From positions 163,454-227,453 of the forward strand of contig NZ_FOFB01000008.1 in NCBI RefSeq assembly GCF_900110645.1: a DNA stretch of 64,000 bases. Reading direction: 5' to 3'. The translations under genes and the position numbers were made by a program. The notes below the pieces were generated by a model. It was given only the letters and a program-made list of their open reading frames with translations. It was not told the DNA's origin and made no database searches. This DNA comes from Neolewinella agarilytica. GTDB lineage: Bacteria; Bacteroidota; Bacteroidia; Chitinophagales; Saprospiraceae. Below, one piece after another: positions 3,802-62,428 of the stretch (position 1 is its first letter; each line of letters begins with the position of its first letter).

Positions 3802-3818
3802 GCACCTGCGCCCGCGCC
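3802..3818 (+). repeat. Dispersed 17-bp word, exact copy (1)
   Basis: Exact match to GCACCTGCGNCNGCGCC (NCN = CCC). It lies in the 44-base gap between ade and the WcaJ-type gene, two bases beyond the stop codon of the latter. On that gene's strand it reads GGCGC...GGTGC. Confidence 0.85.
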
Positions 3819-3820
3819 CT

Positions 3821-5284: not shown

Positions 5285-5287
5285 GCG

Positions 5288-6136: not shown

Positions 6137-6169
6137 TTAGTGTTTTTGAGCGAAGGCAGGGTAACAAGC

Positions 6170-10571: not shown

Positions 10572-10588
10572 GGCGCAGCCGCAGGTGC
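10572..10588 (-). repeat. Dispersed 17-bp word, exact copy (2)
   Basis: The minus strand reads GCACCTGCGGCTGCGCC with TTTG before and CAAA after. It lies about 80 bases upstream of gnd. The 22 bases centred here are identical to the copy at 15046-15062. Confidence 0.9.
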
Positions 10589-15045: not shown

Positions 15046-15062
15046 GGCGCAGCCGCAGGTGC
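15046..15062 (-). repeat. Dispersed 17-bp word, exact copy (3)
   Basis: The minus strand reads GCACCTGCGGCTGCGCC, with the same flanks as the copy at 10572. It forms an inverted pair with the weaker copy at 15132-15150. Confidence 0.9.
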
Positions 15063-20054: not shown

Positions 20055-20071
20055 GGCGCGCACGCGGGTGC
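20055..20071 (-). repeat. Dispersed 17-bp word, two mismatches
   Basis: The minus strand reads GCACCCGCGTGCGCGCC. It lies about 30 bases beyond the zwf stop and 31 bases before a palindrome that has a second copy at 43761. Confidence 0.6.
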
Positions 20072-20149: not shown

Positions 20150-21691
20150 TTATTCCTCTCCCTTCCCAAAGACCATCTCCAGATACGCTTTGCCCGGGAC
20201 TCTCTTTGGGGTGAGCTTACTAACGATGACGTAAACCAGAAAGGACATCAGGAATGCCGGGATGATCTCGTGCACGTCGCGTAATGACTCGTAATTAAAC
20301 CGGAAGGCTAATCGCCAGACGACGTTAACCACCATCCCTGCCACCATACTTGCCATGGCACCTGCATCTGTGCCCCATCGTAAGTACAGGCCTCCGAAAA
20401 TACCCGGAAAGAAACTGGCGGCAAAAACGGCACCGGCAAAAGCCGTCAGTTCTACGATACCCGCAATCGGATAAACGGACAGCAGCCACACCAGGAAAAA
20501 GGTAAAAACACAGTAGGCGAACATGGCCCACTTCGTGCGGGGGATGAGTTTGTTCTCCTCCATCGGCCGCAGCACGTGCCAAATGTCTTTCACCATGGCG
20601 GTGCCGATAATGATGATGACGGAGGCGAGGGAAGACATTCCCGCAGCAAACAGACCGGCTACACAGATACCGCTGACAATTTTGTTGTCAAATTTATCCA
20701 GCATGAAGCCAATCACCTTGTCGGTGTCCTGAATCAGGTAGGCGGCTTCTTCCTGATTAACCATACCGTGTACTAATGCTCCCAGGCCCATGACGCAAAT
20801 AAGGGAGACGCCCAGAAAGACCGGTGTCCAGATCATGGCAAACCGCATGCTTTTGGCGTTGTCTACGGAGTAAAATCGAATGAGGTTTTTGGGCTCGGAG
20901 ATCTGCTTCATCCCGATGGAAAGCCCGATGCCGAGGATGTACAGAAAAGAGACTAAATGGCCGAAGGTGACCAGCCCGTTACCCATCGGTTCTCCGCCCT
21001 TCGTTGGATGGTCGGTCTGGCTGATGACGATGAACAATTCTTCCACACCTCCGACGAAGATGAAGGGTAAAGTCAGCATAAGGATCGCCACACCAAACAT
21101 GATAATGCCCTGGATAGCATCCGTCCACAGAACAGAATACATACCTCCCCAGATCGTATAAGCGCAGGTGATGAACAAAATCGCAGCTGCACCCCAGAGA
21201 TATGGGACATCAAGGACGGTTTCGAGTACTACGGCACATCCTTTGGCAATGCCCGCCATGTACCATATGGTAGCAAATAAAATAATGACGGCTGATAGCA
21301 GCCGGATGTATCTGGCCAGGCTGCTCTGATAGCGGAGGTGGAAGTAGTCGGGGATGGTGAAAGACTGCAGCCGGGCGGTATGTAACCGCATTCTGGGGCC
21401 GAGTAACTGCCAGGAAATGATGCAGAAGACCGTCCAGATGAAGCCCATCCAGGCCCAACTCAGTCCATACTGAAAAGATTTGCCTGCCTGCCCGATGTAA
21501 GTATTGGTGCTGGCCGAGGTGGAAAAGAAGGCAAGTGAGATAACCCAACCGGGAATCTTACGTTTAGCGACGTAGTAATCTGCTACCCCGGCAGAAGCCT
21601 GTTTTTTGAAGTGCCATCCTACATAGAGGCAGCCGCCAACGTAGAGCAAGGTGAGGAAAAGGGTGAAAAAGTGCTCCTGCAAATAGTCCAT
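20150..21691 (-). CDS. Sodium:solute symporter (SSS family)
   Basis: An inner-membrane sodium-coupled transporter of about 13 helices. Family signatures are DYYVAKRKIPGWVISLAFFSTSASTNTYIG near the N-terminus, the GxxYA-like IWGGMYSVLWTDAIQGIIMFG, and MSSLASVIIIIGTAMVKDIW. Length (513) is typical of the Bacteroidota branch, which includes sugar, sialic-acid and proline carriers. The substrate cannot be deduced. It stands alone, convergent with zwf and divergent from the SNF2-family gene. Confidence 0.92.
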   Translation of the reverse strand: MDYLQEHFFTLFLTLLYVGGCLYVGWHFKKQASAGVADYYVAKRKIPGWVISLAFFSTSASTNTYIGQAGKSFQYGLSWAWMGFIWTVFCIISWQLLGPRMRLHTARLQSFTIPDYFHLRYQSSLARYIRLLSAVIILFATIWYMAGIAKGCAVVLETVLDVPYLWGAAAILFITCAYTIWGGMYSVLWTDAIQGIIMFGVAILMLTLPFIFVGGVEELFIVISQTDHPTKGGEPMGNGLVTFGHLVSFLYILGIGLSIGMKQISEPKNLIRFYSVDNAKSMRFAMIWTPVFLGVSLICVMGLGALVHGMVNQEEAAYLIQDTDKVIGFMLDKFDNKIVSGICVAGLFAAGMSSLASVIIIIGTAMVKDIWHVLRPMEENKLIPRTKWAMFAYCVFTFFLVWLLSVYPIAGIVELTAFAGAVFAASFFPGIFGGLYLRWGTDAGAMASMVAGMVVNVVWRLAFRFNYESLRDVHEIIPAFLMSFLVYVIVSKLTPKRVPGKAYLEMVFGKGEE

Positions 21692-21798: not shown

Positions 21799-21815
21799 GC
21801 ACCTGCGTTCGCGCA
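21799..21815 (+). repeat. Dispersed 17-bp word, two mismatches
   Basis: GCACCTGCGTTCGCGCA, preceded by CTTTG. It lies in the divergent region between the symporter and the SNF2-family gene. A partial echo, CCGTTCGCGCC, follows about 50 bases later. Confidence 0.6.
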
Positions 21816-28768: not shown

Positions 28769-30205
28769 GTGTCCGAAACGAATCCTAACATCACCGAGTT
28801 GCTGCGTCGCTACCTGAGCGGCGCCATCACCGCCCCGGAGGAGGCGGAGCTGGAGCGGTTGGCCCGGAAGGACGAGACTTTGCGGGACGCTATGCAGGGC
28901 CTGCAGTCCGCTCCGGAAGAAGACCATCTGGCACGGGTGGAGCGGATGAAAGCCCGCGTTCGCCAGCAGGCAGGACAAGGGGCGCGGACGCCGGTGCAAA
29001 GTAAGGTTAAGGGCAGTGAAAGCCCCGCTGGAGGCGCCGTTGTTCGCCCCCTCCAACGCTATCGCTACTACGCTGCCGCCGCCGTCTTATTACTGCTCAT
29101 CTCGGCCGTTTTTCTGCTGCCCCGCTTTCAGGAAGAAGCCTTCGCAACGGATGTAGCCATGAAGACAGAGCCCATTCAGGAAACGCCCGCCCCGGAGTTT
29201 TCTCCCGCCCCGGAGCCCGACCAGGCCGCTGAGGCAGAAGCCCCGACTCCCCTTGCTGCTGAAAACGAACCATCGGACCTGCGCCCCGGCGCCGCTACCT
29301 CCGCTGCTGCTCCAAAGCCTGCCCCCCGACAACAAAAAGACGTAGTGGTAAGCTCGCCCCCACCTCCTTCGCCCCCGGTTACTGCTGAAGAGGAAGAGAT
29401 GAATGACGACATTGCGGAAGAGGTTTTCGTCGCCGCTCCTACGACGGCTGCCCCTACGGCTCCACCGGCAATCCGCCGCCCGTCCCCCGCTGCCGTGCAA
29501 CGGACTGACGAGGCTGCCGCTAAACTGGAAGCACGAGCGGAACAGGAACGGGCATCCGTTTCCCGTAGCCGCAGCCAACGCTCCCGGGCGGAAGCGGATG
29601 ATATGTCCGTTACTGCAGCTACAACTGCGGGCATTAGCAATGGTCCGTCAATACTTAGCGGTCGCGTTACCAACGAAAACGGAGAACCTGTTGCCAATGC
29701 TTTGGTACGTCAGCCTGGCCTGCCCATCGGTCAGCGAACGGATAGCAACGGTGTTTTCCAAATTTCTGCGGATGCAACAGCAACCATGCTGGATATCTCT
29801 CATCCCGATTTTAACGAGGAGCGTGTCGACGTAAAAAGCCTGGGCGCTGACCTGCAAATCACCCTGGAACAAGAAAAAAGAGTGGACTACGCAGAGTGGA
29901 AAAAATCCTGGGAATCCACTAAGATACCACTGGACGACACGCCCGGTTACGCGCTGCCCGAAGAAGGGTACAATGCCCTTCGTAAACGAATTGAGGAAAA
30001 CAAACCCGAGGGTATTCCTGCGGGTAAAATCAAGTTTAGCTTCCTGGTGGATACGGACGGAATGCTCAGTGACTTCATTTTCCGTGGCCAACCGGAGCAG
30101 GCGACGATGGATTACATCGGCACCACCATCATGAACACCTCCATCTGGAATGTAGTGAAGGGGGAGGAGCCGGTCCGGGTTTATTTTAAGGTGGTGTTTG
30201 AGTAG
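28769..30205 (+). CDS. Anti-sigma-factor-like membrane protein with carboxypeptidase-regulatory and TonB-C-like domains
   Basis: Starts with GTG directly after the sigma factor stop. Residues 1-66 resemble a zinc-free anti-sigma N-terminus (ITELLRRYLSGAITAPEEAELERLARKDETLRDAM). A single TM helix lies at about 99-117 (YYAAAAVLLLLISAVFLL). A 170-residue Pro/Ala/Glu-rich linker follows. Residues ~297-355 form a carboxypeptidase-regulatory-like beta sandwich (LSGRVTNENGEPVANALV ... GVFQISADATATMLDISHPDF). The last ~100 residues (GIPAGKIKFSFLVDTDGMLSDFIF ... VRVYFKVVFE) resemble a TonB C-terminal domain. It is predicted to hold the sigma factor at the inner membrane while sensing in the periplasm. 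Residues 71-76 (GARTPV) are encoded by a near-match of the 17-bp word. Confidence 0.85.
   Translation: MSETNPNITELLRRYLSGAITAPEEAELERLARKDETLRDAMQGLQSAPEEDHLARVERMKARVRQQAGQGARTPVQSKVKGSESPAGGAVVRPLQRYRYYAAAAVLLLLISAVFLLPRFQEEAFATDVAMKTEPIQETPAPEFSPAPEPDQAAEAEAPTPLAAENEPSDLRPGAATSAAAPKPAPRQQKDVVVSSPPPPSPPVTAEEEEMNDDIAEEVFVAAPTTAAPTAPPAIRRPSPAAVQRTDEAAAKLEARAEQERASVSRSRSQRSRAEADDMSVTAATTAGISNGPSILSGRVTNENGEPVANALVRQPGLPIGQRTDSNGVFQISADATATMLDISHPDFNEERVDVKSLGADLQITLEQEKRVDYAEWKKSWESTKIPLDDTPGYALPEEGYNALRKRIEENKPEGIPAGKIKFSFLVDTDGMLSDFIFRGQPEQATMDYIGTTIMNTSIWNVVKGEEPVRVYFKVVFE
28981..28997 (-). repeat. Dispersed 17-bp word, one mismatch, in coding sequence
   Basis: The minus strand reads GCACCGGCGTCCGCGCC with CTTT before it. 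It falls in the cytoplasmic linker of the anti-sigma-like protein, where it encodes GARTPV. A further, weaker likeness (GGACCTGCGCCCCGGCGCC) lies in the same gene's Ala/Pro linker at 29275-29293. Confidence 0.7.
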
Positions 30206-34030: not shown

Positions 34031-34049
34031 GGACCTGCGCTTTGCGCCC
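34031..34049 (+). repeat. Dispersed 17-bp word, variant with longer spacer
   Basis: GGACCTGCG, then CTTT, then GCGCCC, preceded by CTTT. It lies about 80 bases before the kinase-like gene. Confidence 0.5.
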
Positions 34050-35245: not shown

Positions 35246-37123
35246 CTATCCCACCAACTCCATCCACTCCATTTCCTTCTCCTCGATCTGTTCGTTGAGT
35301 TCGGCGAGTTCCTTGCCAAGTGCAGCGATTTTTTCGTTGTCGAGCCCGGAGGGATCCAGAAACTGCTTATTGATCTTCGCTTTCGCCTCCTCCAGCTTTT
35401 TGAGTTGGCCTTCTACGCGGCGAATGGCTTTGCGTTGCTCCTGCGAAATGTGCTCCTGGGGCTGTTCTGCTTTTTTGGGCGCGGGCGCAGGTGCAGCGGA
35501 CGTTTTTTCGGCAAGGACGGCTTTCTGCTCCGCCAGTTCCTCCTTGCGCTTTTCCCGGTACTCGGTGTAAAGACCGTTCCAGTCGCGGAGGTTACCATCC
35601 TCTTCGAAGATGAAGAGGTGTTGACATATCTTGTCCAGGAAAAAGCGATCGTGAGACACGATGAGCACACAGCCGGGGAAGTCCATCAGGAATTCTTCCA
35701 ACACGTTGAGCGTCATGATGTCCAGGTCGTTCGTCGGCTCATCGAGAATGAGGAAGTTGGGGTTCTTCATCAGGATGGTGAGCAGATAGAGTCGCCGCCT
35801 TTCACCACCGCTTAACTGACTTACGTAAACCTGTTGCTGCTTCGAGTTGAACATGAAGCGCTCCAGCAGGGCACGAGCGGTCAGCTTCAGCCCCTTCGCC
35901 AGCGGAATAAACTCCGCGATCTCGCGGACCACCTCGATGACGCGCTTATCCTGGTCCAGATTAATCCCGTCCTGGGTGTAGTAACCAAAGACGGTGTTGC
36001 TGCCGTGGACGACCTTGCCGGTGTCCGGCTCCAGCTCTTTAGTGAGCATGTGCAGCAGGGTGGATTTACCCGCCCCGTTGCGGCCCACAATACCGGCGCG
36101 TTCCTTTTTCTGAAATTTATAGCTGAATCCTTTTACCAGAGTCCGGTCGCCGTAGGATTTACTGATGTTATGCGCCTCCAGAATCTTACTGCCCAGCCGC
36201 TGACCGACGATCTCCAGTTTCAGCTCTTCCTCCTGCCGGAAGGAGCCCACCTTGCTCTTCAGTTCGTGGAAGGCGTTGATGCGGCTCTTCGCCTTCGTGC
36301 CCCGTCCGCTGGGCATCCGCCGCACCCATTCGAGCTCTTTCTTCATCCGCTTTTTATCCTTGGCCAATTCGGCAGACTCGGTTTCTTCGCGGGTGGCTTT
36401 TTTCTCCAGAAACTGAGAATAGTTGCCGGTGTAGTGGTAGATGTTTCCACCGTCAAGCTCGATGATGCGGTTGCAGACCCGCTCCAGGAAGTAGCGATCG
36501 TGCGTTACCATCAGGAGCGTGAGGTTCGTTGATTGCAGCCATTCTTCCAACCACTCGATCATGTCGAGGTCGAGGTGGTTGGTCGGCTCATCCATGATGA
36601 TGAGGTCGGGCTCGTCGATGATGAGTTTGGCCAGGGCCACGCGTTTGCGCTGGCCTCCGGAGAGGGTGCTCACCCGTTGGTCAAAGCGGTCGACGTTGAG
36701 CTTGCTCAATACTTCCTTGATGCGGGCCTCGATGTCCCAGGCCTGGAGTTCATCCATCCGGGTGAGGGCGTCCTGCAGTTTTTCGGGTTGATCGCTGCGG
36801 GAGAGTGCTTCCTCGTAGTCGCGCACGGCCCTGACCATCTCATTGTCGGAGTCAAAGACGGCGTCCATCACCGTATCGTTTACGCCGAAGTCCGGCTCCT
36901 GCGGCAGGTAGGCCATCCGGGCATCTTTGTGCACGTAAATCTCTGAGCCCAGACCTTCCGGCAAGTCGATACCTGCGGCTACCCGCAGCAGGGTAGACTT
37001 TCCCGTTCCGTTCTTGGCTACCAGGGCTACTTTGGTGTTCTTCGCCACCTGTAGATTCACTTGATCAAAGAGAACCTTTTCGCCGTAGATTTTGGAGACT
37101 TTCGTGAGTTCGAGGTAAACCAA
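35246..37123 (-). CDS. ABC-F family ATPase (Uup-like)
   Basis: A soluble protein with two ABC ATPase domains and no membrane part. ABC-F proteins act on the ribosome, and the Uup branch has a C-terminal coiled coil. Walker A motifs are VAKNGTGKSTLLRV (first half) and VGRNGAGKSTLLHM (second half). Signatures are LSGGQRKRVALAKL and LSGGERRRLYLL, with Walker B segments LIIMDEPTNHLDLDMI and FLILDEPTNDLDIMT. The interdomain region carries the basic ERVCNR...RRMPSGRGTKAKSRI helices. The C-terminal coiled coil (VEGQLKKLEEAKAKINKQF ... LAELNEQIEEKEMEWMEL) is separated from the second ATPase domain by a linker in which APAPAP is encoded by an exact 17-bp word. Confidence 0.93.
   Translation of the reverse strand: MVYLELTKVSKIYGEKVLFDQVNLQVAKNTKVALVAKNGTGKSTLLRVAAGIDLPEGLGSEIYVHKDARMAYLPQEPDFGVNDTVMDAVFDSDNEMVRAVRDYEEALSRSDQPEKLQDALTRMDELQAWDIEARIKEVLSKLNVDRFDQRVSTLSGGQRKRVALAKLIIDEPDLIIMDEPTNHLDLDMIEWLEEWLQSTNLTLLMVTHDRYFLERVCNRIIELDGGNIYHYTGNYSQFLEKKATREETESAELAKDKKRMKKELEWVRRMPSGRGTKAKSRINAFHELKSKVGSFRQEEELKLEIVGQRLGSKILEAHNISKSYGDRTLVKGFSYKFQKKERAGIVGRNGAGKSTLLHMLTKELEPDTGKVVHGSNTVFGYYTQDGINLDQDKRVIEVVREIAEFIPLAKGLKLTARALLERFMFNSKQQQVYVSQLSGGERRRLYLLTILMKNPNFLILDEPTNDLDIMTLNVLEEFLMDFPGCVLIVSHDRFFLDKICQHLFIFEEDGNLRDWNGLYTEYREKRKEELAEQKAVLAEKTSAAPAPAPKKAEQPQEHISQEQRKAIRRVEGQLKKLEEAKAKINKQFLDPSGLDNEKIAALGKELAELNEQIEEKEMEWMELVG
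35478..35494 (-). repeat. Dispersed 17-bp word, exact copy, in coding sequence
   Basis: The minus strand (the gene's strand) reads GCACCTGCGCCCGCGCC, followed by CAAA. It encodes APAPAP in the flexible linker of the ABC-F protein. Confidence 0.85.
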
Positions 37124-37787: not shown

Positions 37788-40730
37788 TTAGCTTTTCCCT
37801 GCACCCGCGTCCGCGCCCCGCTTTTGCTTGTTATAATGGAGTACGTACCCACCCATGAGGAGGAAACCCACGAGTGCACCAGCTAAGTAGTACCAGTTTA
37901 TTCCTCCGCCAGCAAAATCAATTGCCCCGGCCTCCCCATACAGCGTCATGGCTGACCAGAAGTACGGATGCGCAAAATCCCCGCCCTCCAGCTGGGCCAG
38001 CTGAGCGGCCGACAGTGCTTCGCTGCGGTCTTTGCCCGTGGCAAGCTCCCGGTAGAAGGCCACCATCAGGTCACGGGTGGCCGCGTCGTCCACTTGCCAG
38101 AGCGTTGTCAGTGTACTCCGGGCGCCAGCGGCCGTGAAGGCTGTGGCCAGGCTGAGCGTCGTCTCTCCGGGCACGTAAGTTCCCAGGCTGGTTTCACAGG
38201 CGGAGAGGACCACTAATTCGGTCTGCAGTGGCAGCGCGGTCAGATCGTTGTAGTAGAGCAGCTCTTCCAGCTCCAGGCTGTCTCCCCGCTGGGTGAAAGC
38301 CACGAAGCTGAGCTTGGGGTCCGCCGCATTCACCATGCCGTGAGTGGAAAGGTGAAGGATTTGCCCATCCCCGAGTTCCTCGAGGAACCGACTTCGGGTG
38401 GCTTTGTCTCCGACGAAAATCCGGGTGCCAGGCACCATATCTGCGATGTCTTCGACCTCAGCCCGGTTAAAGCGAAGGGGCTGCAGCCCCACCAGCGCCC
38501 GCTCTCCTAAACGGGCGGCCAGGGAAACAGACCTGCCCACCGCCTCCGCGCTGGCCTCTCCGCCAAAGGAAGGCGCAAAGCCCAGTAAATTATGTTGGTA
38601 ACTCACCGCAGGTCGTTCGGACAGCTCCCGCAAAACAGTGGCTGAATAGGCGTAGCGGATACGATGAGCGGACTGCAAGTAAGTCAGGCCGGCGTAATTC
38701 AACGGAGGCTTCTCTTCCGTCAAAGGAAGGGCGCCAAAGGGCAGTAAGGCCAGTGGGCCGTCAGGTATTATGCAGAGGTTTTCTCCTAAATCCAGCGATT
38801 CATCAGACAGTAGTTGGCGGAGTAAAAACTGCCCTTCCCGCAGAAATACTTCATCGAAGGCACCTTGTTCTTCAGCACTAAGCAAACTCTTGCGGCGGTA
38901 AGCTCCTTCCTGGATGGAGGCCCGCCAGCGCCGGATACTCGGCGCCAGTGCAGCCGTGTTTTGGAGCGCCGTAAACTGTAGCTGCCCGTCCGTAGAAAAA
39001 TAGAAGCGGTAGCCGTCTTTTTTGCCGAGGTGAAAAGCCAAGAGGTCCGAACCCGTATCTGATAACAATGAGTGCAACTCCTGACGGTCAATCCCAAAAT
39101 CAGGGGTGACTATTTCTTTTCGCTTGCTTTGCACCAGGCGGTCAAGCTGAAGCCGGGCGGCGGCCAGGAGTTCCTCGTTCGTTGCCTTCGTGTCGAGGCT
39201 TCGCTCCAGTTCTGCGATGCGGGCTCTTAGCTCCGCTTCCTGCCGGGGCATAGCGTCCTGATTTTGTTTCAGATTAGCAAGGAGCGTGTAGGCTTTCGCG
39301 CGTTCGCTGAGTTCAAAAGCGGACCAGTCATGACCGGCAGCGGGTTCTTTTTGGTGCAGACCATAGAGCAAGGTGATGGCCTGGTCAAAGTAAGGGCGAA
39401 GGTTCTGGCTGAGGTAGCTGCGGCTTTCGTCGGCGCTGACGCGGGTGCGAAGTTGGTCTTGCAGCGCAAACAGCAGGGTGTAGTCGGTCAGGGCCGCCTC
39501 CGGCCGGCCCAGGGAAACCAGTGTCCTGGCCCGGTCACCCAGCAAATCAGCGGCAGTTTCCAGCTCATCCGCGCTCAGGCTGTCGGGGTTGGGGTAGGCC
39601 AGTTCGTCCGCGGCGTAGGGTGCCAGCAGTTGCAGGCCGGCGTTGAAGGCCGCTAAAGCTTTTTCATGGTTGCCGGTTTCCCGGAACACGACGCCTTCAA
39701 CACTAAATAGGCGGGGGAGGTAGTCTGGCGCGTCCTCTGTCAACAGCGCGCGTGCTTCGGCAACGTGGCCGAAGGCAGCCGTTATTTCGCCGGTTCCTCC
39801 CTTCGCCCGGGCGAGGTTAAAGTGCAGGCGGCCAATCTCTGCTTTCCCGACTTCGTTCTCCGTCAGGTAATTGATGGCCCGTTCCCAGTAAGCGATCTTT
39901 TCCTGGTCATTGCCCAGGTCGTCGTTTATGGCTCCCAACAGGTTGAGGGTTTGCCCTATTTCCAGCGGGTCGCCGATCTCTTCGCCGTATTTCAAGGCTT
40001 CTTTGGCGGCAGTAGCGGCTTCTTCAAGTTCCTGGAAGGTGTAGAAGGTCACCCCGGAGGTATAGTAGACGTAGTGCGCATCGTATACGTCCGCCGCTGA
40101 CGTTTTATGGAGCAGGCTAATCGCTCGTCGCGAAGCACTCACTCCCGTCTGATAATCCCGCACCTGAGCGGATACCTGAGACAAATCCTGAAGGCTCCGC
40201 AACCAGTTTACCGAATCGGTTGGCTGCACGGTTTCATAAATGTCGATGGCTTCCCGAAGCAGTAAGGTGGCAGAGTCCGTCTGCCCCAGGTAACTCAGGC
40301 AATTAGCGAGGTTTCTGCGGCTGTGGGCCTGATCTTTGTGCGCCTGGGTGAACACCTCGTCCCGGATCAGGATGGCCTTGCGGTAAGCTGATGCTGCGCC
40401 GGCATCGTCGTATTCGTTGTAATGCGACACCCCGATTTTATGCTGCGCCAAACCGCTTAAGCTATCGATGATGGGCGTACCATTGTCCTCTTTCATCAGG
40501 GCTGCATAGGCCTGTCTTGCGGGCAGAAAACTATCTACTGCTGACCAGGCTTCTCCGGCCTTCAACAGGTCCGTACGGCTACCTCTTTGCCAGAAAGCTT
40601 CCGCAGCAGCTGCGTACTCTTCTGCCTCAAGCAATTGCTCAGGGCTTTGGCCCGACAGTGTAGCGCTGACGGCGATTAAAAAAAAGAGGAGAGCTCCCCA
40701 GCGAGAACCGGTGCAACGGTGGTAATTCAT
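37788..40730 (-). CDS. TPR-CHAT protein (caspase-like), secreted or membrane-anchored
   Basis: CHAT is a caspase-fold cysteine protease domain (the separin/caspase clan). This 980-residue protein has a signal peptide (GALLFFLIAVSATLSGQ), about ten tetratricopeptide-type repeats across residues ~30-450, a helical region, and a CHAT domain at the C-terminus. The catalytic pair appears intact: His797 in HLSTHGMV and Cys845 in VLSACETSLG, followed by FTAAGARSTLTTLWQVDD. A single TM helix near 946-966 (YYLAGALVGFLLMGG) and a short basic tail end the protein. With a cleaved signal peptide the CHAT domain would face the periplasm. The last residues (GADAGAG) are encoded by a near-match of the 17-bp word, and a second copy lies mid-gene. 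Its substrate is unknown. Confidence 0.88.
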   Translation of the reverse strand: MNYHRCTGSRWGALLFFLIAVSATLSGQSPEQLLEAEEYAAAAEAFWQRGSRTDLLKAGEAWSAVDSFLPARQAYAALMKEDNGTPIIDSLSGLAQHKIGVSHYNEYDDAGAASAYRKAILIRDEVFTQAHKDQAHSRRNLANCLSYLGQTDSATLLLREAIDIYETVQPTDSVNWLRSLQDLSQVSAQVRDYQTGVSASRRAISLLHKTSAADVYDAHYVYYTSGVTFYTFQELEEAATAAKEALKYGEEIGDPLEIGQTLNLLGAINDDLGNDQEKIAYWERAINYLTENEVGKAEIGRLHFNLARAKGGTGEITAAFGHVAEARALLTEDAPDYLPRLFSVEGVVFRETGNHEKALAAFNAGLQLLAPYAADELAYPNPDSLSADELETAADLLGDRARTLVSLGRPEAALTDYTLLFALQDQLRTRVSADESRSYLSQNLRPYFDQAITLLYGLHQKEPAAGHDWSAFELSERAKAYTLLANLKQNQDAMPRQEAELRARIAELERSLDTKATNEELLAAARLQLDRLVQSKRKEIVTPDFGIDRQELHSLLSDTGSDLLAFHLGKKDGYRFYFSTDGQLQFTALQNTAALAPSIRRWRASIQEGAYRRKSLLSAEEQGAFDEVFLREGQFLLRQLLSDESLDLGENLCIIPDGPLALLPFGALPLTEEKPPLNYAGLTYLQSAHRIRYAYSATVLRELSERPAVSYQHNLLGFAPSFGGEASAEAVGRSVSLAARLGERALVGLQPLRFNRAEVEDIADMVPGTRIFVGDKATRSRFLEELGDGQILHLSTHGMVNAADPKLSFVAFTQRGDSLELEELLYYNDLTALPLQTELVVLSACETSLGTYVPGETTLSLATAFTAAGARSTLTTLWQVDDAATRDLMVAFYRELATGKDRSEALSAAQLAQLEGGDFAHPYFWSAMTLYGEAGAIDFAGGGINWYYLAGALVGFLLMGGYVLHYNKQKRGADAGAGKS
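37801..37817 (+). repeat. Dispersed 17-bp word, one mismatch, in the last codons of the TPR-CHAT gene
   Basis: GCACCCGCGTCCGCGCC on the plus strand. On the gene strand it encodes GADAGAG, about nine codons before the stop. The orientation is the same as at other gene ends. Confidence 0.75.
39432..39448 (-). repeat. Dispersed 17-bp word, one mismatch, mid TPR-CHAT gene
   Basis: The minus strand reads GCACCCGCGTCAGCGCC. It encodes TRVSAD in a region linking the TPR part to the helical part. Confidence 0.65.
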
Positions 40731-43630: not shown

Positions 43631-43647
43631 GGCGCGGCCGCAGGTGC
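43631..43647 (-). repeat. Dispersed 17-bp word, exact copy
   Basis: The minus strand reads GCACCTGCGGCCGCGCC, preceded by CCTT, about 30 bases upstream of the HAD gene. It forms an inverted pair with the copy at 43717-43733. The 103 bases between the outer ends have no reading frame. Confidence 0.9.
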
Positions 43648-43716: not shown

Positions 43717-43733
43717 GCACCTGCGTCTGCGCC
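43717..43733 (+). repeat. Dispersed 17-bp word, exact copy
   Basis: GCACCTGCGTCTGCGCC with TTT before and CAAA after. It is the right member of the inverted pair and lies about 30 bases before the palindrome at 43761. Confidence 0.9.
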
Positions 43734-43760
43734 CAAATAACACCAATTAATGAGCGAAAC

Positions 43761-43794: not shown

Positions 43795-43836
43795 GATCGG
43801 CACCTGCCACCAGTGCTATCGCGACTACCCTGCTAT

Positions 43837-46922: not shown

Positions 46923-48206
46923 ATGAAGGCATTGCTTACCGGATTCTCTTTGCTGCTGCTACTTTCCTTTTGCACCTGCGACCGCGCTTTTGATAGTCAA
47001 GGAGTCAAACAGTCAGGGAGTCAAGTAGTCAGGGAGTCAGATAGTCAAGTAGTCAAACAGTCCGGGAGTCCGGGAGTGGCGCGGCCGGTGAAGGAAACCG
47101 TAATGGCCGGGCTGCGCCGGCCCTGGTCGATGAAGTTCCTGACGGAAGACGAAGCGCTGCTCAATGAAAAAGACGGACAACTGCTGCGGGTGAACCTGAT
47201 GACGGGCGATCGGATACCCGTCAAGGGTCTACCTGCGGATCTGGCCGATAGCCTACTGTTTGACACCCTGGCCCTGCCGCCGAATTCAGCATTCAACAGC
47301 GCCCATGGTAAACGGGTAAAGTTCAATGCCGGGCTGTTCGATATCTGCCTCGATCCTGAATTTGAGCAAAACCAATGGGTGTACCTCTCCTACGCTGCGC
47401 AGGAAAGCATCCACGGCTATGGCCTGCGGGTGGTGCGGGGCCGACTGGCAGACGATGCGCTGACGGGCCTGGAAACGCTGCTTACCGTTGGTCCGTTCAC
47501 ACCGGTTCTTTTTCATTTTGGAGGTGGCCTCACCTTCGGCGCTGACGGGAAACTATACGTCACCGCCGGAGAACGACTCTTCTTCGACAGTGAGCAACCC
47601 GCAGAAACGGTGGCGCAGAACGTTGCGGACCGGCGGGGCAAAATCTACCGGATCAATCCGGATGGTTCCATTCCGGCGGATAACCCGGGTTTCGGCCCTG
47701 ATGCAGTTCCCGGCCTCTACGCCAGGGGCATTCGTGCGGCGCAGGGGCTGGCCCTGCATCCACATACCGGTGATATCTGGTTTACGGAGCACGGCACGAT
47801 CCAGGGGGATGAGATCAATGTCCTGCGTGCTGGCGCTAACTACGGCTGGCCACTGGAGACCACGGGCAAATACCGCGGCGGCTATTCGCCGCCGGAGCTG
47901 GACGTAGTAACCACCCGCCCGGCCTGGTACTGGCTACAGACCGTAGCGCCTACCGGTCTGGCCTGGTACTTCGGTGATGAGTTTCCTTCCTGGCGGGGTG
48001 ATCTACTGGTGCCGGGGCTCTCGCGCGGCAGCTTGTGGCGCGTCCGCACTGAAGGGCGAACGGTTAAAAGCCTGGAGGAGCTGCTGGTAGATGATCGCTC
48101 CCGAACCCGTAAGGTCGTCATTAGCCCGGAGGGGAAAATCTATCTGCTGACGGACGAAGAGGACGGCAAAATCATTCGCGTCCGAAACAAGAATAACGAA
48201 CAATAA
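46923..48206 (+). CDS. PQQ-dependent sugar (sorbosone-like) dehydrogenase lipoprotein
   Basis: A soluble-aldose-dehydrogenase-type beta propeller. After a lipoprotein signal peptide (MKALLTGFSLLLLLSFC; Cys17 or Cys19), residues ~25-52 are a low-complexity linker made of octapeptide repeats (SQGVKQSG, SQVVRESD, SQVVKQSG), encoded by an 8-bp tandem array. The propeller follows: LRRPWSMKFLTEDEALLNEKDGQLLRVN, LFDICLDPEFEQNQWVYLSY, GGGLTFGADGKLYVTAGERL, RGKIYRINPDGSIPADNP, RGIRAAQGLALHPHTGDIWFTEHGTIQGDEINVLRAGANYGWP and MAP-like C-terminal blades. The start is the ATG at 46923; the GTG upstream is unlikely. It is predicted to oxidise sugars in the envelope with PQQ supplied from elsewhere. Confidence 0.9.
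   Translation: MKALLTGFSLLLLLSFCTCDRAFDSQGVKQSGSQVVRESDSQVVKQSGSPGVARPVKETVMAGLRRPWSMKFLTEDEALLNEKDGQLLRVNLMTGDRIPVKGLPADLADSLLFDTLALPPNSAFNSAHGKRVKFNAGLFDICLDPEFEQNQWVYLSYAAQESIHGYGLRVVRGRLADDALTGLETLLTVGPFTPVLFHFGGGLTFGADGKLYVTAGERLFFDSEQPAETVAQNVADRRGKIYRINPDGSIPADNPGFGPDAVPGLYARGIRAAQGLALHPHTGDIWFTEHGTIQGDEINVLRAGANYGWPLETTGKYRGGYSPPELDVVTTRPAWYWLQTVAPTGLAWYFGDEFPSWRGDLLVPGLSRGSLWRVRTEGRTVKSLEELLVDDRSRTRKVVISPEGKIYLLTDEEDGKIIRVRNKNNEQ
46972..46988 (+). repeat. Dispersed 17-bp word (16/17) inside a signal peptide
   Basis: GCACCTGCGACCGCGCT encodes part of CTCDRA, overlapping the lipobox Cys of the sugar dehydrogenase lipoprotein. Only the last base differs from the consensus. Confidence 0.85.
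46995..47077 (+). repeat. In-frame 8-bp tandem array (10 units)
   Basis: Ten consecutive octamers beginning AGTC run without a gap: AGTCAAGG, AGTCAAAC, AGTCAGGG, AGTCAAGT, AGTCAGGG, AGTCAGAT, AGTCAAGT, AGTCAAAC, then AGTCCGGG twice. Since 8 and 3 share no factor, every 24 bases give eight residues, hence the octapeptide repeat in the protein. Gain or loss of one unit would shift the reading frame. Confidence 0.95.
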
Positions 48207-50572: not shown

Positions 50573-50589
50573 GCACCTGCGTCCGCGCC
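50573..50589 (+). repeat. Dispersed 17-bp word, exact copy
   Basis: GCACCTGCGTCCGCGCC, five bases beyond the stop codon of the minus-strand membrane-protein gene. A run of nine C lies just to its left. Confidence 0.9.
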
Positions 50590-55500: not shown

Positions 55501-56075
55501 GCATCGATCATCATCAGCCAGTAGTCGGCCCGGTCAGCGTGCTGGTCGATAACGATTCGCCAGGCGAGGCGCGCGCCTTCGTCAGTAGGGAGGATCATCA
55601 GTTTGGCCAGAAGCGGCTTTTGGGAGACGGCGGACCAGCTAAAGCTCATCTCACCATCCGTTTCGCTGAGCAGTACGGCGTTGCCGAAGGTGGGGGAGAC
55701 CGTGTTGACCGCTTCTGAGATGGCTTGTTGGGCGCTCACCGCAGGTGCAAGGGGGAGGCCGTAATCAGCCAGGTTGGCCACAAAACCATTGTTGCTGGCT
55801 ACCAGCTGGTCTCCGCGAAAGTGGAGAATGACCTGAGCATTGTTCACCGAAAGGCCACGGTACTGTTGGTTGACGTAGATGTGGCGGACGCCTCCGGGGG
55901 AGACATAGTTGTCAGTGATTTCCAGCTCCGCAACATCCTCCGCCGTCAGGCCAAGGTCTTCATGCTTATTGCGGAGATAGTCGATGGCCGCCTGGCCATC
56001 GTTTTGTGCTACTAGCGTAGCGGTTCCCAGCAACAGGAGCAGGGAGAAAAGGGTAGGAAATATTCTCATGTTCAA
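52518..56075 (-). CDS. M36 (fungalysin) metallopeptidase with PA, DUF11-like and T9SS sorting domains
   Basis: A secreted zinc protease of 1185 residues. A signal peptide is followed by an FTP-type propeptide (residues ~25-200). The catalytic part has HEIGH at 584-588 (AHEIGHGVSNRLVGG) and the downstream glutamate in ESLGEGWSDFFTLAS. A protease-associated (PA) domain lies in ALITRGTCNFSLKVFNAQEAGAVGVVICND. A DUF11-like repeat (AGEGVTYTLKATNFRDSVTSTVTITDQIPAGMTFEEGSV) and a jelly-roll segment follow, and the protein ends with a sorting domain (VSVFPNPANEVVNVNITAE ... LPAGVYVVQVTGDSRVSTTKVTIQ). Predicted to be exported by T9SS and to digest extracellular protein. One variant of the 17-bp word is in the propeptide coding region. 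Confidence 0.93.
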   Translation of the reverse strand: MNMRIFPTLFSLLLLLGTATLVAQNDGQAAIDYLRNKHEDLGLTAEDVAELEITDNYVSPGGVRHIYVNQQYRGLSVNNAQVILHFRGDQLVASNNGFVANLADYGLPLAPAVSAQQAISEAVNTVSPTFGNAVLLSETDGEMSFSWSAVSQKPLLAKLMILPTDEGARLAWRIVIDQHADRADYWLMMIDATDGRILDKDNLVLKCDFGTPHHTHNYNTACAKTDATAELPVHEQLIESFAKTTTVADGASYRVFPFGEESPLHSDGRVLEVDPADSIASPFGWHDTNGLDGPEFTITRGNNVYAYPDRDDNDDTPDPGIFADGGDELVFDYYFADEENEDTILNASLTQVFYTTNKVHDWLYHAGFDEEGGNFQRNNYKGGGVDRDPIMAEAQDGSGTNNANFFTPEDGQSGVMQMFLWEETGNIMTVTEPASVSGPYTTGTAGFGPVIGSIPTTGQLVEVAPALACDPVTNGNEIAGKMALITRGTCNFSLKVFNAQEAGAVGVVICNDAMEGSPDGRGGTIGMSNGNPELTVTIPSVFLSFENCQPLRVSLAANDSISVTFRSTAPPPRDGDFDNGIVAHEIGHGVSNRLVGGPSNIGCVFNGESLGEGWSDFFTLASTPQTLVDNPDGSEPRGIGNYSTRGAIDGAGIREKRYSTDFAINDFTYDNFITANNASPHNRGEVWAVTLWDLYWAMTEEYGYDDDLIHGTGGNNKAVELVIEGMKATRCGPGAIDARDGILQADELINDGANQCLIWEVFARRGMGFSADQGSAEDPTDNVEAFDLSPYCIGGVHLTKTADVDVINAGEGVTYTLKATNFRDSVTSTVTITDQIPAGMTFEEGSVRGNDNFTVEGNTITFNVGEMEFEDEETIIYSVTSDPELGSTSYFFDGSEDGDDNWELESLDGNVLWEQTDTTPYEGVLAWYIVNVPSVQDQVLRTFQPVPVTGDNPALRFFTKYETEAGWDAGIVEVSTDNSTWTRVPDNFVRGGYRGEISADGSAALQGTTSFWGNSGGYVENIIDLSAYANQSIYFRFRFISDAAVNARGWWIDNIELLDVVNYESAAILTSDQGDNFRAEVGNLGVLALGGDATDTDDPQLGQTQVSVFPNPANEVVNVNITAERAGEATVQLFSIDGRAVFTNTLNLAPGATLTTINTSSLPAGVYVVQVTGDSRVSTTKVTIQ
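55731..55748 (-). repeat. Dispersed 17-bp word, variant with longer spacer
   Basis: The minus strand reads GCACCTGCGGTGAGCGCC: both halves are intact but the spacer is GTGA instead of NCN. It encodes LAPAVSAQ in the M36 propeptide. Confidence 0.65.
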
Positions 56076-56298: not shown

Positions 56299-57807
56299 AT
56301 GGAAGACATATCCCGCTTGCCAGCCTTGCTGCTTTTAGCCCTTCTTTGCACCTGCGTCAGCGCCCAAAACACAGACCGTGATCTGCGCGGCGTCTGGATG
56401 GCCACTGTTCTCAACATCGATTATCCCCAAAATCCTACCGTTAGTGCAGCTACGCTGCAGGCTGATTTTAACTCCCAGCTCTTCCGCCTTCGGAAGGCGG
56501 GGATGAACACCATCTTTGTGCAGGTTCGCCCGGCCGGAGACGCCATTTATCCCTCTAAGCTGGCGCCCTGGTCTGAGTGGCTCACCGGCGTCCAGGGCAA
56601 AGCCCCGGTCAGCAATTTTGACCCCCTCGCCTACATGATAGAAACGGCGCATAAACAGGGCGTCGAAATTCATGCCTGGGTAAACCCCTACCGGGTCGCT
56701 ATGTCGCTGGACTCGACGAACTTTGCCCCCAACCATCTTTATCATACTCATCGGGATTGGGTCCGTACTTACAACGGACGCCGATACCTCGACCCCGGCT
56801 TGCCCGACGTGCGCGCCCACCTCGGTGAAGTAATTGATGAGCTGGTAGCCAACTATGACATCGACGGGGTTCACTTTGATGACTACTTCTACCCCTATCC
56901 CGCCGCCGGAATCCCCTTCCCTGACCAGGCCACCTGGTATCGCTACGGACAGGGCCGGCCGCTGGCCGACTGGCGCCGGGAGAACGTTAACACCTTCGTG
57001 GCCGAAACCTACCGCCGGATCAAGGCCGCCAAACCATGGGTACAGTTCGGCATCAGCCCCTTCGGGGTCTGGCGTAACCAAAGCCAGGACCCGCTGCGGG
57101 GCAGCGCCACCCGGGCCTCCGTTAGCAGCTATGATGACCTCTACGGAGACGCCCTGGCCTGGGCCGAAGCAGGCACCGTTGACTACCTCTTGCCACAACT
57201 CTACTGGAGCATGGATTATCCTCCCGCCAGTTATCGGGTGTTGGCCAGCTGGTGGGCGGGCAATGTTCCGCCGGGCGTGCGGATATACATCGGCCATGCC
57301 GCCTATAAAGTGGCTAGTAACGATGACCAGGCCTGGCATGACCTGGAAGAAATGCCCCGACAGCTTTCCCTGAACGAACAGCTTGGGCGAAGTAGCGGGA
57401 GTGTTTATTTCAGCACGAAATCCATCCTCAACAATCCCTTTGGGCTGGCCCAAAGATTGGCAGATCTTTATCCAACTATGGCGCTGCCTCCGGCCCGTAA
57501 CACTACCGTCCCGGTGGTGGCCACCAAAGTGAAACAATATAAACAGAAGCGGACGGAAAAGGGGAATCTCGTCGTTTGGGAAGTGAACAAGAAAACGCCG
57601 AAAGACCAACTTCCTCACTACTACGCCATTTACCGGGGGAGCGATTCAACCCCGATGACACTGCTGCATCGTACCCCTTATCATCAGGGGTGCCACCGAC
57701 TGCACTATTATGATAAACTGGCGGACCCATTGGTGCAGTATGTCTACCGTATAGTCCCGATGGATCGTTTTCACCGGAATATGTCCGTTGCCAAAGTAGC
57801 CCGTTAA
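56299..57807 (+). CDS. GHL10/family 10-like glycosyl hydrolase (DUF187)
   Basis: A secreted TIM-barrel protein of about 502 residues. The start is the ATG of MEDISRL; the TTG at 56281 is less likely. The signal peptide ends at ...CTCVSAQ, the CTCVSA part being encoded by a 17-bp word copy. The GHL10 region shows DLRGVWMATVLNIDYPQNPTVSAATLQADF, AGMNTIFVQVRPAGDAIYPSKLAPWSEWLTG, VEIHAWVNPYRV, YDIDGVHFDDYFYPYP and ISPFGVWRNQ. It ends with a fibronectin-III-like part (VYRIVPMDRFHRNMSVAKVAR). Predicted to act on cell-wall or other polysaccharides in the periplasm or outside. The substrate is not assigned. Confidence 0.9.
   Translation: MEDISRLPALLLLALLCTCVSAQNTDRDLRGVWMATVLNIDYPQNPTVSAATLQADFNSQLFRLRKAGMNTIFVQVRPAGDAIYPSKLAPWSEWLTGVQGKAPVSNFDPLAYMIETAHKQGVEIHAWVNPYRVAMSLDSTNFAPNHLYHTHRDWVRTYNGRRYLDPGLPDVRAHLGEVIDELVANYDIDGVHFDDYFYPYPAAGIPFPDQATWYRYGQGRPLADWRRENVNTFVAETYRRIKAAKPWVQFGISPFGVWRNQSQDPLRGSATRASVSSYDDLYGDALAWAEAGTVDYLLPQLYWSMDYPPASYRVLASWWAGNVPPGVRIYIGHAAYKVASNDDQAWHDLEEMPRQLSLNEQLGRSSGSVYFSTKSILNNPFGLAQRLADLYPTMALPPARNTTVPVVATKVKQYKQKRTEKGNLVVWEVNKKTPKDQLPHYYAIYRGSDSTPMTLLHRTPYHQGCHRLHYYDKLADPLVQYVYRIVPMDRFHRNMSVAKVAR
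56348..56364 (+). repeat. Dispersed 17-bp word, exact copy, inside a signal peptide
   Basis: GCACCTGCGTCAGCGCC with CTTT before and CAAA after. It encodes CTCVSA at the signal-peptide cleavage region of the GHL10 protein. Confidence 0.9.
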
Positions 57808-59582: not shown

Positions 59583-59591
59583 GTAGCGCCT

Positions 59592-59888: not shown

Positions 59889-59932
59889 TTTATTGTTGTT
59901 TGTGTGGGAAACACCCCGTTAGCGGAAATGGA

Positions 59933-62428
59933 TTAACGGCGAACGATTTTATGATGGCTCCAGCGTGTTCCGTCACTGGCTTCGAGCAGGTAAATGCCGG
60001 CGGGCAGGTCGCCGAGCTCCAGCCGGTCTGCGTTCGAGACTTCCCGCAGCAGGGCGCCGCTGAAAGAGAAAAGCCGGTAGCGGAGCACTTGGGTAGCGGA
60101 AAGCTGGCGCGGCCGCAGGTGCAAGGTTCCGTTCGTAGGGTTCGGGAAGACCTCGATGAGGGGCTCCTGCTGGGCGGGGTCATCGGTATTGGTCTGGAAG
60201 CCGGCAAAGCCAGCCAGGAGTGGGCGTAGCATGATGGCACCCGTAGTGGTGCCGCCCAGGCGCTGAAATCCGTTGCCAACGTCGAACCACTGTACTTCTT
60301 CAGGGCTGTTGTTCCGATCGAAACCCACGCCAATGGACCGGCTGGCGCTTTGCTGCTCCCAGCCTACCCAGAAGGCACCGGTGATCAGGTCAACGGGCGC
60401 ATCGAAGGTGTAGGTCGTGTAGCCCTGCAAGCTGTCGAGGTGGAAGTCTTCTGCGTACAGGATGGGGAAGTCTTCGCTGTAGATCAGGTCTGTCGGCATC
60501 GTATCTCCTGAATAGACAACGAGACGAATGTCCTGATCGCCCAGTCCACCTAACCCGCGCGGGATGCGTACCTGGATGCCCGTCAGCTGATCGTCCACAA
60601 AGGCATTGTATTCCTGCAGGATGGTGGTGCCGGACTGCCCTTCCAGCGTTACCTCAGCCGTGCCGTCATCGTAGGCCATGTATTCGCCGAAGCAGGTGGT
60701 GACGGAGGAGAAGTTATTGTCCGTAATACCGGGTTCGTAGGCACCTGAAGTCTCACCGTTGTTGTTGAAAAGATAAATGGTCTCCAGCTTGTGGGTCAGG
60801 TTTTCGTCGGCAACGGTCAGCAGATACCCGACAATGTCAGTATAAACCTTTCCTAGTTTTGAAAAGAGAATGGTCCGATCAAGTCGCTGCCCGGGAGCGA
60901 ACTCATTGTCGCCGGAGCCACCCGTTCCAAAAGCAGATGGTAGCAGTGGACTGGCCGCCACGGTAATGGGGTCATTACTGCCGCCCTGAACACGCAGCCT
61001 GGACAAACCATTGTCAACAGTAATATCATCCGTAGCCCCGGCGCTAAGGTTCTCCAGTATGAGGGTAATGGAATCACGGAAGAGCGCTTCGCCCCCAGCC
61101 TGCAGGTGCCGCATCGGGATGGCGGTGTAAGGCTCCGTCAGGTAAAAGGCCTCCGCCTGCAGGGCCAAATCCCGTGGTGGATTCTGTTCTGCGTCGAGCC
61201 TTACGTAGTCGAGGTGCCACATATCGACGGCGCCCACTTCGCTGCTTTTGTTGGCGAAGCGGAACTGAAAACCGTTGTAGAGCATCTCGTCAGGGATCGT
61301 CAGGGTGTACGACTCAAAGGGAAGGGGAGTGTTGTTTCCCGTCGTGATGGGGACGCCCTCTATTCGCAGGGCGGTAGACCAGTTGCCCTCCGGCGAAAGG
61401 AACTGCACGAGGAAACTGTCCTGTCGTTCGGGCCGGTTGCCCAGCCCCCGGGGCTGGAGCTGGAAGTGCAGGTTAACGCCGCTTTGGCCGGCCATGTTGA
61501 TGGGCGTGGAGGTCAGGTAATCCCGCGGAACGGGCGTACTGCTGCCGCTGGCGTAGGGCTTTCCGTCGAAGTCAACCGCGTCGAAGGTGGCCACCCCAAT
61601 GGAGGGTGGGCCGACGGCGAAGTTGCGGTTAATCAACACATCTTCGTTTTGCCACAGGTTGGCGGCGGGGCGGAAGTCGTTGTAGCTGAAATCATCGAAG
61701 AAGGGCAGGTCAACGGCTTCCCGGTCAATGGTAAAAGTAGCGCGGTAAACATCGCAGAGGCCGAAGGCGGTGCAGACGGTGACACAGACGGCGTCTTCGC
61801 CGCCGGCACGGGCGGCGACGTAGCGGAAATCATTGCCGCGGTCCATCCCTTCCAGGAAGGCGACGCGTTGCTCCCGGCCAGCGTAATCCGTTGCGCAGGT
61901 CTCGATCGTCCGGCAAATAGCCTCCGAAGGCAGCATCTCCCGTGGGACGCCAACTTCTACCACTCCGCCAGGCAGAACGATCCGGTTACCCAGGTCGATG
62001 GTCCGGCTATCGCGCCGGACAAGAATGCTAAGCGGAATGACTATGGCGCACTCGCCGGCTGCATTACAGGCGGTGAAACTCAGCTCATCTACGCCTTCCT
62101 CTGCACCTGCGTCCGCGCTATAGGTTAATGTGTCGTTGGCAAAAACGGCGGTACCGAAAGCGGCTTCCGCACAGCCTTCACAACTGTAGGTTATTCCGGG
62201 ACCGAGGCCGATGGTGTCCAGGTCCAGTTTAATGGTACGGCTTTCTCCCGCCTCGAATAACTCGTAAGCGTCGAGGCCAAAATCACCGCAATTTACTTTT
62301 GGCGTCAGGGGTGCCGGCAGGCTGTTGTCGGGGAAGTCGTAGCCCGAAAGCGGGACGAACTGCTGGGCAAAAAGAGGAGAAAAACCCAGCCCGAGGAAGA
62401 GGACCGGTAAGAGTAGTCGTACGTTCAT
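59933..62428 (-). CDS. Large T9SS-exported surface/secreted protein
   Basis: An 831-residue protein with a signal peptide (LLPVLFLGLGFSPLFAQ) and a C-terminal sorting domain (LIEVFPNPTNGTLHLRPRQLSAT ... LPAGIYLLEASDGTRWSHHKIVRR). Between them are several jelly-roll-like segments (for example FFDDFSYNDFRPAANLWQNEDVLINRNFAVGPPSIGVATFDAVDF) and proline-poor beta-rich stretches; no catalytic motif is visible. Cadherin-like or Ig-like repeats near the N-terminus (ANDTLTYSADAGAEEGVDELSFTACN) are suggested. Likely exported by T9SS and either attached to the cell surface or released. Two exact copies of the 17-bp word lie in the coding sequence. Confidence 0.88.
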   Translation of the reverse strand: MNVRLLLPVLFLGLGFSPLFAQQFVPLSGYDFPDNSLPAPLTPKVNCGDFGLDAYELFEAGESRTIKLDLDTIGLGPGITYSCEGCAEAAFGTAVFANDTLTYSADAGAEEGVDELSFTACNAAGECAIVIPLSILVRRDSRTIDLGNRIVLPGGVVEVGVPREMLPSEAICRTIETCATDYAGREQRVAFLEGMDRGNDFRYVAARAGGEDAVCVTVCTAFGLCDVYRATFTIDREAVDLPFFDDFSYNDFRPAANLWQNEDVLINRNFAVGPPSIGVATFDAVDFDGKPYASGSSTPVPRDYLTSTPINMAGQSGVNLHFQLQPRGLGNRPERQDSFLVQFLSPEGNWSTALRIEGVPITTGNNTPLPFESYTLTIPDEMLYNGFQFRFANKSSEVGAVDMWHLDYVRLDAEQNPPRDLALQAEAFYLTEPYTAIPMRHLQAGGEALFRDSITLILENLSAGATDDITVDNGLSRLRVQGGSNDPITVAASPLLPSAFGTGGSGDNEFAPGQRLDRTILFSKLGKVYTDIVGYLLTVADENLTHKLETIYLFNNNGETSGAYEPGITDNNFSSVTTCFGEYMAYDDGTAEVTLEGQSGTTILQEYNAFVDDQLTGIQVRIPRGLGGLGDQDIRLVVYSGDTMPTDLIYSEDFPILYAEDFHLDSLQGYTTYTFDAPVDLITGAFWVGWEQQSASRSIGVGFDRNNSPEEVQWFDVGNGFQRLGGTTTGAIMLRPLLAGFAGFQTNTDDPAQQEPLIEVFPNPTNGTLHLRPRQLSATQVLRYRLFSFSGALLREVSNADRLELGDLPAGIYLLEASDGTRWSHHKIVRR
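60106..60122 (-). repeat. Dispersed 17-bp word, exact copy, in coding sequence
   Basis: The minus strand reads GCACCTGCGGCCGCGCC, preceded by CCTT. It encodes LHLRPRQ at the beginning of the sorting domain of the T9SS-exported protein. Confidence 0.85.
62103..62119 (+). repeat. Dispersed 17-bp word (16/17), in coding sequence
   Basis: GCACCTGCGTCCGCGCT on the plus strand, coding on the minus strand for SADAGA near the N-terminal part of the T9SS-exported protein. Confidence 0.85.

Follow-up and report, generated by a model that had tools for sequence, protein, structure and literature searches.

A dispersed 17-bp word in Neolewinella, probably a DNA uptake sequence with species spellings

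Why should one 17-bp word recur along a bacterial chromosome, on both strands, within genes as well as between them? The question is raised by a 64,000-nucleotide stretch of Neolewinella agarilytica (contig NZ_FOFB01000008.1, positions 163,454 to 227,453; hereafter the window, meaning the whole of this stretch), in which the word GCACCTGCGNCNGCGCC is scattered from one end to the other. We consider this word a likely DNA uptake sequence (DUS), that is, a label of self DNA that takes species spellings in Neolewinella, and give this reading a probability of roughly 0.7. We favor it because the excess of copies, their random orientation, permissive placement, inverted pairs, low number of decayed forms and dialects match what parts of two papers describe for the labels of Neisseria and Haemophilus (PMC3630211; PMC1939737). 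A sequence-only reading of the window had offered two explanations, a DUS or a mobile micro-repeat, and the former fits best with the abundance, the absence of orientation bias, the permissive placement, the inverted pairs, the dialects and the competence genes.

Abundance, extent and placement of the word

Throughout, the core of the word is GCACCTGCG, the looser pattern used for searches is GCACCTGCGNCNNCGCC, and G000 denotes the genome that holds the window (6,220,808 bases in 74 contigs). Allowing up to two mismatches, GCACCTGCGNCNGCGCC is matched 17 times in the window, nine times exactly, where dinucleotide shuffles predict 0.28 and none of 100 shuffles of the window gets to 17; at 34031 and 55731 there are two more copies, in which the spacer carries an indel. 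The eleven copies that had been listed as agreeing at the first 16 positions are all present, nine of them matching at all 17 and those at 46972 and 62103 differing at base 17 only. The seven weaker copies on the same list were recovered as well, five (20055, 21799, 28981, 37801 and 39432) at one or two mismatches and two as the spacer-indel forms, and one further match with two mismatches, at 20358, was absent from it. The claim that copies exceed chance turned out to be understated: exact copies in the whole of G000 number 623 (289 forward, 334 reverse), or about one per 10 kb, against a single match to the reversed pattern used as a control. Among 9-mers ranked by their excess over an order-4 Markov model, the core comes first (93 occurrences vs 5.7 expected in 460.7 kb of G000). 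Matches at 0, 1, 2 and 3 mismatches number 50, 42, 13 and 43, against 0, 0.12, 1.7 and 19.7 for 200 permuted patterns, and this steep spectrum indicates that few copies are decayed. A steep, graded excess over the mismatch classes has been described for known uptake sequences, in the part of that source drawn on here (PMC1939737). Copy number is thus well above what base and codon composition predict, and the shuffles, the reversed control and the permuted patterns together rule out chance or composition as the cause. Two further candidates, a known RNA family and a word borne by phages, were set aside, since the window matched no such family and just one viral contig had the longer form TGCACCTGCGNCNGCGCCCAAA.

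Alignment of the copies of three genomes (G000, n = 91; G143, n = 43; G123, n = 50) shows informative positions around the core between about -24 and +23. Positions -23 to -14 are pyrimidine-rich and A-poor, runs of C and T occupy about -11 to -6, a strong C stands at -4 and a T at -1 (G143 excepted), and downstream a C at +17 is followed by A-rich DNA. The flanking signal tapers off with no sharp boundary. An extension of the best copies to TTTG before and CAAA after had been proposed; it is real, and upstream the motif goes further, to about -24. A similar extended profile is obtained from intergenic copies alone, and coding and intergenic copies agree, indicating that the signal is carried at the DNA level.

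Genes were called with a simple home-made dicodon script, so the coding fractions are approximate. In the 460.7 kb of G000, 43 of 92 copies (at most one mismatch) fall in called genes, in keeping with the earlier estimate of about half. In five genomes, at the same threshold, 117 of 250 copies are coding and 133 intergenic, and copies are 3.2 to 7.2 times denser between genes than inside them. Depending on frame and strand, the coding copies of G000 specify APAxAPK-like linkers, CTxVxAQ signal-peptide ends, LHLRPR, GAxAGA or GAxTQVQ. The word is therefore read in several frames and on both strands, as had been stated, and these five unrelated peptides rule out a common protein motif as the cause. 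The word might still be pictured as a by-product of common protein segments, namely signal peptides ending in CTCVSAQ and Ala-Pro linkers, given that the first 25 codons, 6.3% of all codons, hold 33 of the 117 coding copies, and that 26 of the 29 sense copies there sit in the signal-peptide frame. This explanation is contradicted by the 133 intergenic copies, by the diversity of peptides on both strands and by the identity of the extended motif outside genes, and we regard it as barely credible.

Gene starts are also the exception to the balance of orientation, with 29 sense and 4 antisense copies in the first 25 codons. Mid-gene copies are split 39 sense to 40 antisense, and the last 30 codons hold 5 of the 117 coding copies for a 7.6% share of codons. 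Orientation is close to even genome-wide (289/334, p 0.08). Between genes of the same strand, 33 intergenic copies run along transcription and 36 oppose it; a promoter or RNA element is ruled out by this lack of any tie to gene direction. Judged contig by contig, copies also switch strands. A Chi-type recombination or replication signal would likewise be overrepresented and present in coding sequence, and would likewise spread through biased recombination. A site of that type should, however, be oriented and shorter, whereas here the strands alternate within contigs and ignore the direction of transcription, the dialects described below differ in spacer length, and 17 bp with about 24 bp of flank far exceeds the length of known Chi sites. 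A signal of this type is very unlikely.

Inverted pairs, orthologous sites and transposases

Spacing of neighboring copies was analyzed with 325 copies at up to two mismatches from five genomes, using simulations that preserve the genic or intergenic class of each copy. Divergent pairs 78-92 bp apart number 11 against 0.49 expected, convergent pairs 30-60 bp apart number 7 against 1.04, and divergent pairs 110-200 bp apart number 9 against 2.63; in each case none of 500 simulations reaches the observed value. Neighbors in the same direction at 30-200 bp were found twice. The part of Frye 2013 drawn on here reports that such pairs are frequent throughout the DUS-bearing Neisseriaceae (PMC3630211), inverted copies being meant. 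When the interiors of 13 divergent pairs (60-110 bp) were compared, two were clearly related, both in G000 and both containing the palindrome CCGGCTTCAGCCGG, and the other 11 were without comparable likeness. The two related interiors, at G000:C24:83171-83271 and G000:C20:26337-26438, perhaps represent one composite unit that was copied.

Such pairs bear on the second explanation of the sequence-only reading, a mobile micro-repeat of the repetitive extragenic palindrome (REP), REP doublet (REPIN) or miniature inverted-repeat transposable element (MITE) kind, moved by a Y1 transposase and fixed later. The word resembles REP and REPIN elements with their REP-associated tyrosine transposases (RAYTs) in being a short dispersed repeat with a clear excess of inverted pairs and few same-direction neighbors, and the two related interiors and the presence of Y1_Tnp proteins in 20 of the 21 genus genomes speak for movement of this kind. 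It is unlike them in being about half genic (43 of 92 copies in G000), in having mostly unrelated pair interiors (11 of 13 without a close relative) and in not tracking Y1 transposases: no Y1_Tnp match was seen in G208 (95% complete, 880 contigs), which holds 639 copies, and four were seen in G206, which holds one. This failure of Y1_Tnp presence to follow copy number rules out a RAYT-driven repeat as the main explanation.

The histories of individual sites were examined in orthologous genes. Linkers of equal length in the ABC-F proteins of several species bear the word or forms with one or two mismatches, and other linkers vary in length. In nine hand-picked orthologous pairs, identity was 136/153 in the core, which was ungapped, and 288/421 in the flanks. 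No clean empty site of word size or larger was seen in the orthologous pairs compared. In several pairs, the partner without the word lies in a gapped alignment, and insertion is thus possible there. A loop of an amidohydrolase is four residues longer in the genus than in G204 and nine outgroup genomes; G204 aside, the longer loop is found in all genus members but G192, which is shorter, and G210, which has no sequence there. A length change of 12 nt, smaller than the word, was therefore involved at this site, and the longer loop may be counted in favor of a mobile element. Unit, boundary and enzyme would all be expected of such an element, whereas degenerate copies are few, the flanks taper, and the equal-length ABC-F linkers hold the word or its near forms. 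Because copies do not track Y1 transposases and neither a clean empty site nor a sharp boundary is seen, we disfavor the mobile micro-repeat and hold it to be quite unlikely.

The copies of the window itself illustrate this range of settings. One divergent pair is present, its exact halves 86 bp apart at 43631..43647 (minus strand) and 43717..43733 (plus strand). It is adjoined at 43760-43795 by a terminator-like inverted repeat of 17 nt with a 2-nt gap. Exact copies between called genes lie at 3802..3818 (plus), 10572..10588 (minus, with TTT before and CAAA after), 15046..15062 (minus) and 50573..50589 (plus), and copies with two mismatches lie between called genes at 20055..20071 (minus) and 21799..21815 (plus). 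The exact copy at 35478..35494 (minus) encodes the linker peptide APAPAPK of an ABC-F-like ATPase, that at 56348..56364 (plus) encodes CTCVSAQ at the end of an apparent signal peptide, and that at 60106..60122 (minus) encodes LHLRPRQ in the C-terminal sorting domain of gene 59933-62428, which also carries a one-mismatch antisense copy at 62103..62119 (plus, SADAGAE). Two copies with one mismatch share gene 37788-40730, one antisense at its 3' end (37801..37817, plus, GADAGAG) and one sense (39432..39448, minus, RTRVSAD), and another is antisense within gene 28769-30205 (28981..28997, minus, GARTPVQ). The one-mismatch copy at 46972..46988 (plus) precedes called gene 47088-48206 or, should translation begin at the GTG at 46878, falls inside that reading frame close to its start. 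Immediately downstream of it, at 46995-47070, lies a tandem array of AGTCAAGG-type units. The two degenerate copies with spacer indels are located upstream of gene 34126-35157 (34031..34048, plus) and within gene 52518-56069 (55731..55748, minus), and the weak two-mismatch match inside a gene at 20358..20374 (plus) may be due to chance.

Distribution and dialects in the genus

Among 198 genomes of the order, all six members of the same genus have between 10 and 692 exact copies; of the other 192 genomes, seven have one exact copy and 185 have none. No comparable dispersed word was seen in 46-100 kb from each of four other genera of the family. The looser pattern was then counted in 21 genus genomes, 19 of which carry 21 to 1102 matches, against 0 to 2 per genome for reversed controls. 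The counts are 1102 in G123, 1099 in G200, 802 in G199, 648 in G000, 640 in G209, 639 in G208, 590 in G143, 459 in G207, 426 in G211, 332 in G210 (55% complete), 203 in G203, 200 in G167, 193 in G198, 160 in G205, 158 in G068, 77 in G201, 66 in G202, 38 in G192, 21 in G212, 4 in G204 and 1 in G206. The prolyl-tRNA synthetase of the window is 81-82% identical to those of Neolewinella maritima and N. litorea, the nearest named relatives by this protein, and blastn synteny of the window with two loci of named Neolewinella and two others is confined to proS. A tree was built from the ABC-F and ComEC proteins with G204, the most divergent member, fixed as outgroup. It contains a clade of nine genomes with 1 to 426 copies (support 100/100) and a clade of ten with 193 to 1102 copies (93/94); the placement of G167 is unsure. 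G206 and G212 are sisters (100/100).

The spelling of the word differs among these genomes around a shared core. G000 uses GCACCTGCG[T/G]C[C]GCGCC, position 11 is an A in 95% of 43 G143 copies, G123 has a G at position 9 in 62% of 50 copies, G068 uses GCACCTGCG[GT][CT]CCCGCC in 7 of 16 core matches, and G167 has a spacer of variable length ahead of CGCC. In G206, with its single match to the looser pattern, a spelling of its own, TACCTGCGCTCCGCCGC, occurs 251 times; this form is found four times in its sister G212, once each in G201 and G208 and never in the 17 others. At two sites, the ABC-F linker and the amidohydrolase loop, the spelling particular to G206 is present with one base more in the spacer, as TTTACCTGCGC(C)xCCGCCG, and the relatives of G206 bear their own words there. 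We take this as concerted respelling at old sites in G206, a view that rests on these two sites. A dialect is not claimed for G212, whose k-mers resembled a different repeat.

Respelling of this sort is where a further alternative has to be weighed, namely that the word is the binding site of a chromosome-organizing or nucleoid-associated protein, distributed over the chromosome and changed in recognition sequence between species. A motif that is long, asymmetric and well conserved, with structured flanks, present on both strands and specific to the genus would suit such a protein. Known chromosome-organizing sites, however, are fewer or are clustered by region; a joint move of hundreds of sites to a new spelling would require selection at every one of them, and copies within conserved genes would be costly. 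This alternative accounts for the abundance but not easily for genome-wide respelling, and we consider it unlikely.

Three stretches of other genus members showed features besides the word. Stretch C60 of G204 has 26 occurrences of TGCTACTTTG, perhaps a promoter element, in 120 kb, where 0.4 would be expected. The same stretch matches C123 of G200, an otherwise distant genome, over 6751 bp at 77.6% identity, a possible transfer, and the G204 side of this match bears a near-word. Stretch C11 of G143 contains a second overrepresented family, AGTCTGTAGTC/AGTCTATAGTC.

Competence genes and the case for an uptake label

An uptake label calls for a machine that could read it, and competence genes are present in the genus. 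ComEC is encoded in all 21 genus genomes, and DprA and an HHH_3 protein are each encoded in 20, the miss in both cases being the 55% complete G210. The HHH protein of G000 has three HHH stretches and scores above the cut-off for the ComEA repeat model TIGR00426; a protein encoded two genes beyond it matches the N-terminal part of CoiA. Alongside this CoiA-like protein, a protein with a Cas10 palm domain is also encoded near the HHH gene. A carboxypeptidase-regulatory barrel gene adjoins the HHH gene in G000 and was not found in the other loci compared. By PF00437, the family of pilus and type II secretion ATPases, no credible pilus ATPase was found among the 21 genomes, secretin and pilin families not having been searched: matches in 20 of the 21 are marginal, 11 of the 21 reach the 24.9-bit cut-off with a maximum of 25.5, and the best match of G000 lies inside a ClpB-like protein of the window. 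A pilin receptor of the ComP type is therefore not expected.

Words are also present at some of these loci. At least one word is held by 14 of the 21 comEC loci, some within comEC at positions common to related species, and the 19 words there compare with 5.5 expected, a count that is not of independent events, as many sites are shared between related species. The HHH locus of G000 (G000:C27:272001-288000) has six words in 16 kb against 1.67 expected, two of them within the HHH gene, and no word is present at four HHH loci from other genomes. Loci picked for other genes gave three words in 26.7 kb (Y1_Tnp), none in 13.0 kb (T2SSE matches) and none in 12.7 kb (HHH).

A precedent for uptake by such a machine exists in the same phylum. 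Riemerella anatipestifer is naturally competent without pilus homologues and, as given in part of the source, needs ComEC, DprA, ComF, RecA and a triple HHH protein as well as a carboxypeptidase-regulatory outer-membrane protein, a DUF5689 surface protein (RA0C_RS04920) and a DUF1343 protein (PMC8459023). A preference for self DNA has been shown in R. columbina, and the part of the report drawn on presents no convincing label, listing AT-rich k-mers alone as candidates (PMC7965970). Neolewinella is like Riemerella in having ComEC, DprA and the triple HHH protein and in having no credible pilus ATPase; unlike it, 20 of the 21 Neolewinella genomes are without the DUF5689 surface protein.

Comparison with the known labels gives a similar mixture. 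The DUS of Neisseriaceae, as portrayed in part of Frye 2013, occur in hundreds to thousands of copies on both strands, are genic and intergenic with permissive placement, form inverted pairs and have variant spellings in related species (PMC3630211), and the Neolewinella word is like them in all of these. It differs in being longer, unrelated in sequence, at lower density and in another phylum. With the uptake signal sequences (USS) of Pasteurellaceae it has intragenic copies in common. USS consist of a core plus flanking T/A-rich segments, a build to which the core and flanking motif seen here are akin. According to part of van Passel, USS in the reading frame favor one of their orientations and tend to lie toward the ends of genes (PMC2346458), a tendency that the sense copies at Neolewinella gene starts recall. 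Unlike USS, the Neolewinella word is enriched at gene starts only, is unrelated in sequence and comes with no pilus ATPase that we could find. By analogy, then, the word would work like a DUS but is no member of either the Neisseria DUS or the Pasteurellaceae USS family, because it shares their sequence with neither and a pilus ATPase was not found.

If the word is an uptake label, we predict that its core GCACCTGCG and the flanks are bound by a receptor in the outer membrane or at the surface. The receptor would pass the DNA on to an uptake machine that, as in Riemerella, works without a pilus (HHH protein, ComEC and DprA), and incoming fragments would then recombine. Uptake would favor labelled fragments, so that alleles nearer the label would spread and copies would build up by drive where they are tolerated, in intergenic DNA, signal peptides and Ala-Pro linkers. 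A shift in receptor preference would then let the copies drift to a new spelling.

Several observations pull the other way. Inverted pairs mark REPINs too, and two of the 13 divergent pairs compared have interiors related to each other; the longer amidohydrolase loop and the gapped alignments of several orthologous pairs likewise count against the label. G212 (21 copies) and G192 (38) are without an established spelling of their own. Density is below that of Neisseria, taking the usual genome size of the latter and about 1900 10-mers (PMC3630211, in part). ComEC, DprA and HHH proteins are widespread, also in the near-wordless G204, and hence not specific to motif-bearers; the DUF5689 family is present in 1 of 21 genomes, no receptor candidate was found in this analysis, and the literature searched yielded no transformation or uptake data for Neolewinella. 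That literature, mostly open-access and searched by titles and abstract starts, also described no uptake label for Bacteroidota. We give somewhat better than even odds to the fuller proposal of a genus-wide, species-spelled uptake label in Bacteroidota that would be served by a pilus-free machine and a receptor of a new kind and would have been respelled genome-wide in at least one species.

To our knowledge, uptake labels are experimentally known in two proteobacterial families only, both with type IV pili. If the word is indeed an uptake label, it would be a third, unrelated and pilus-free origin, in Bacteroidota, and self-DNA labelling would have evolved independently. It would offer a handle on the DNA receptor of Bacteroidota, and Neolewinella could be transformed with the word as a practical tag. 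Since the genus would comprise some twenty labelled species, one could trace site by site how dialects arise and switch.

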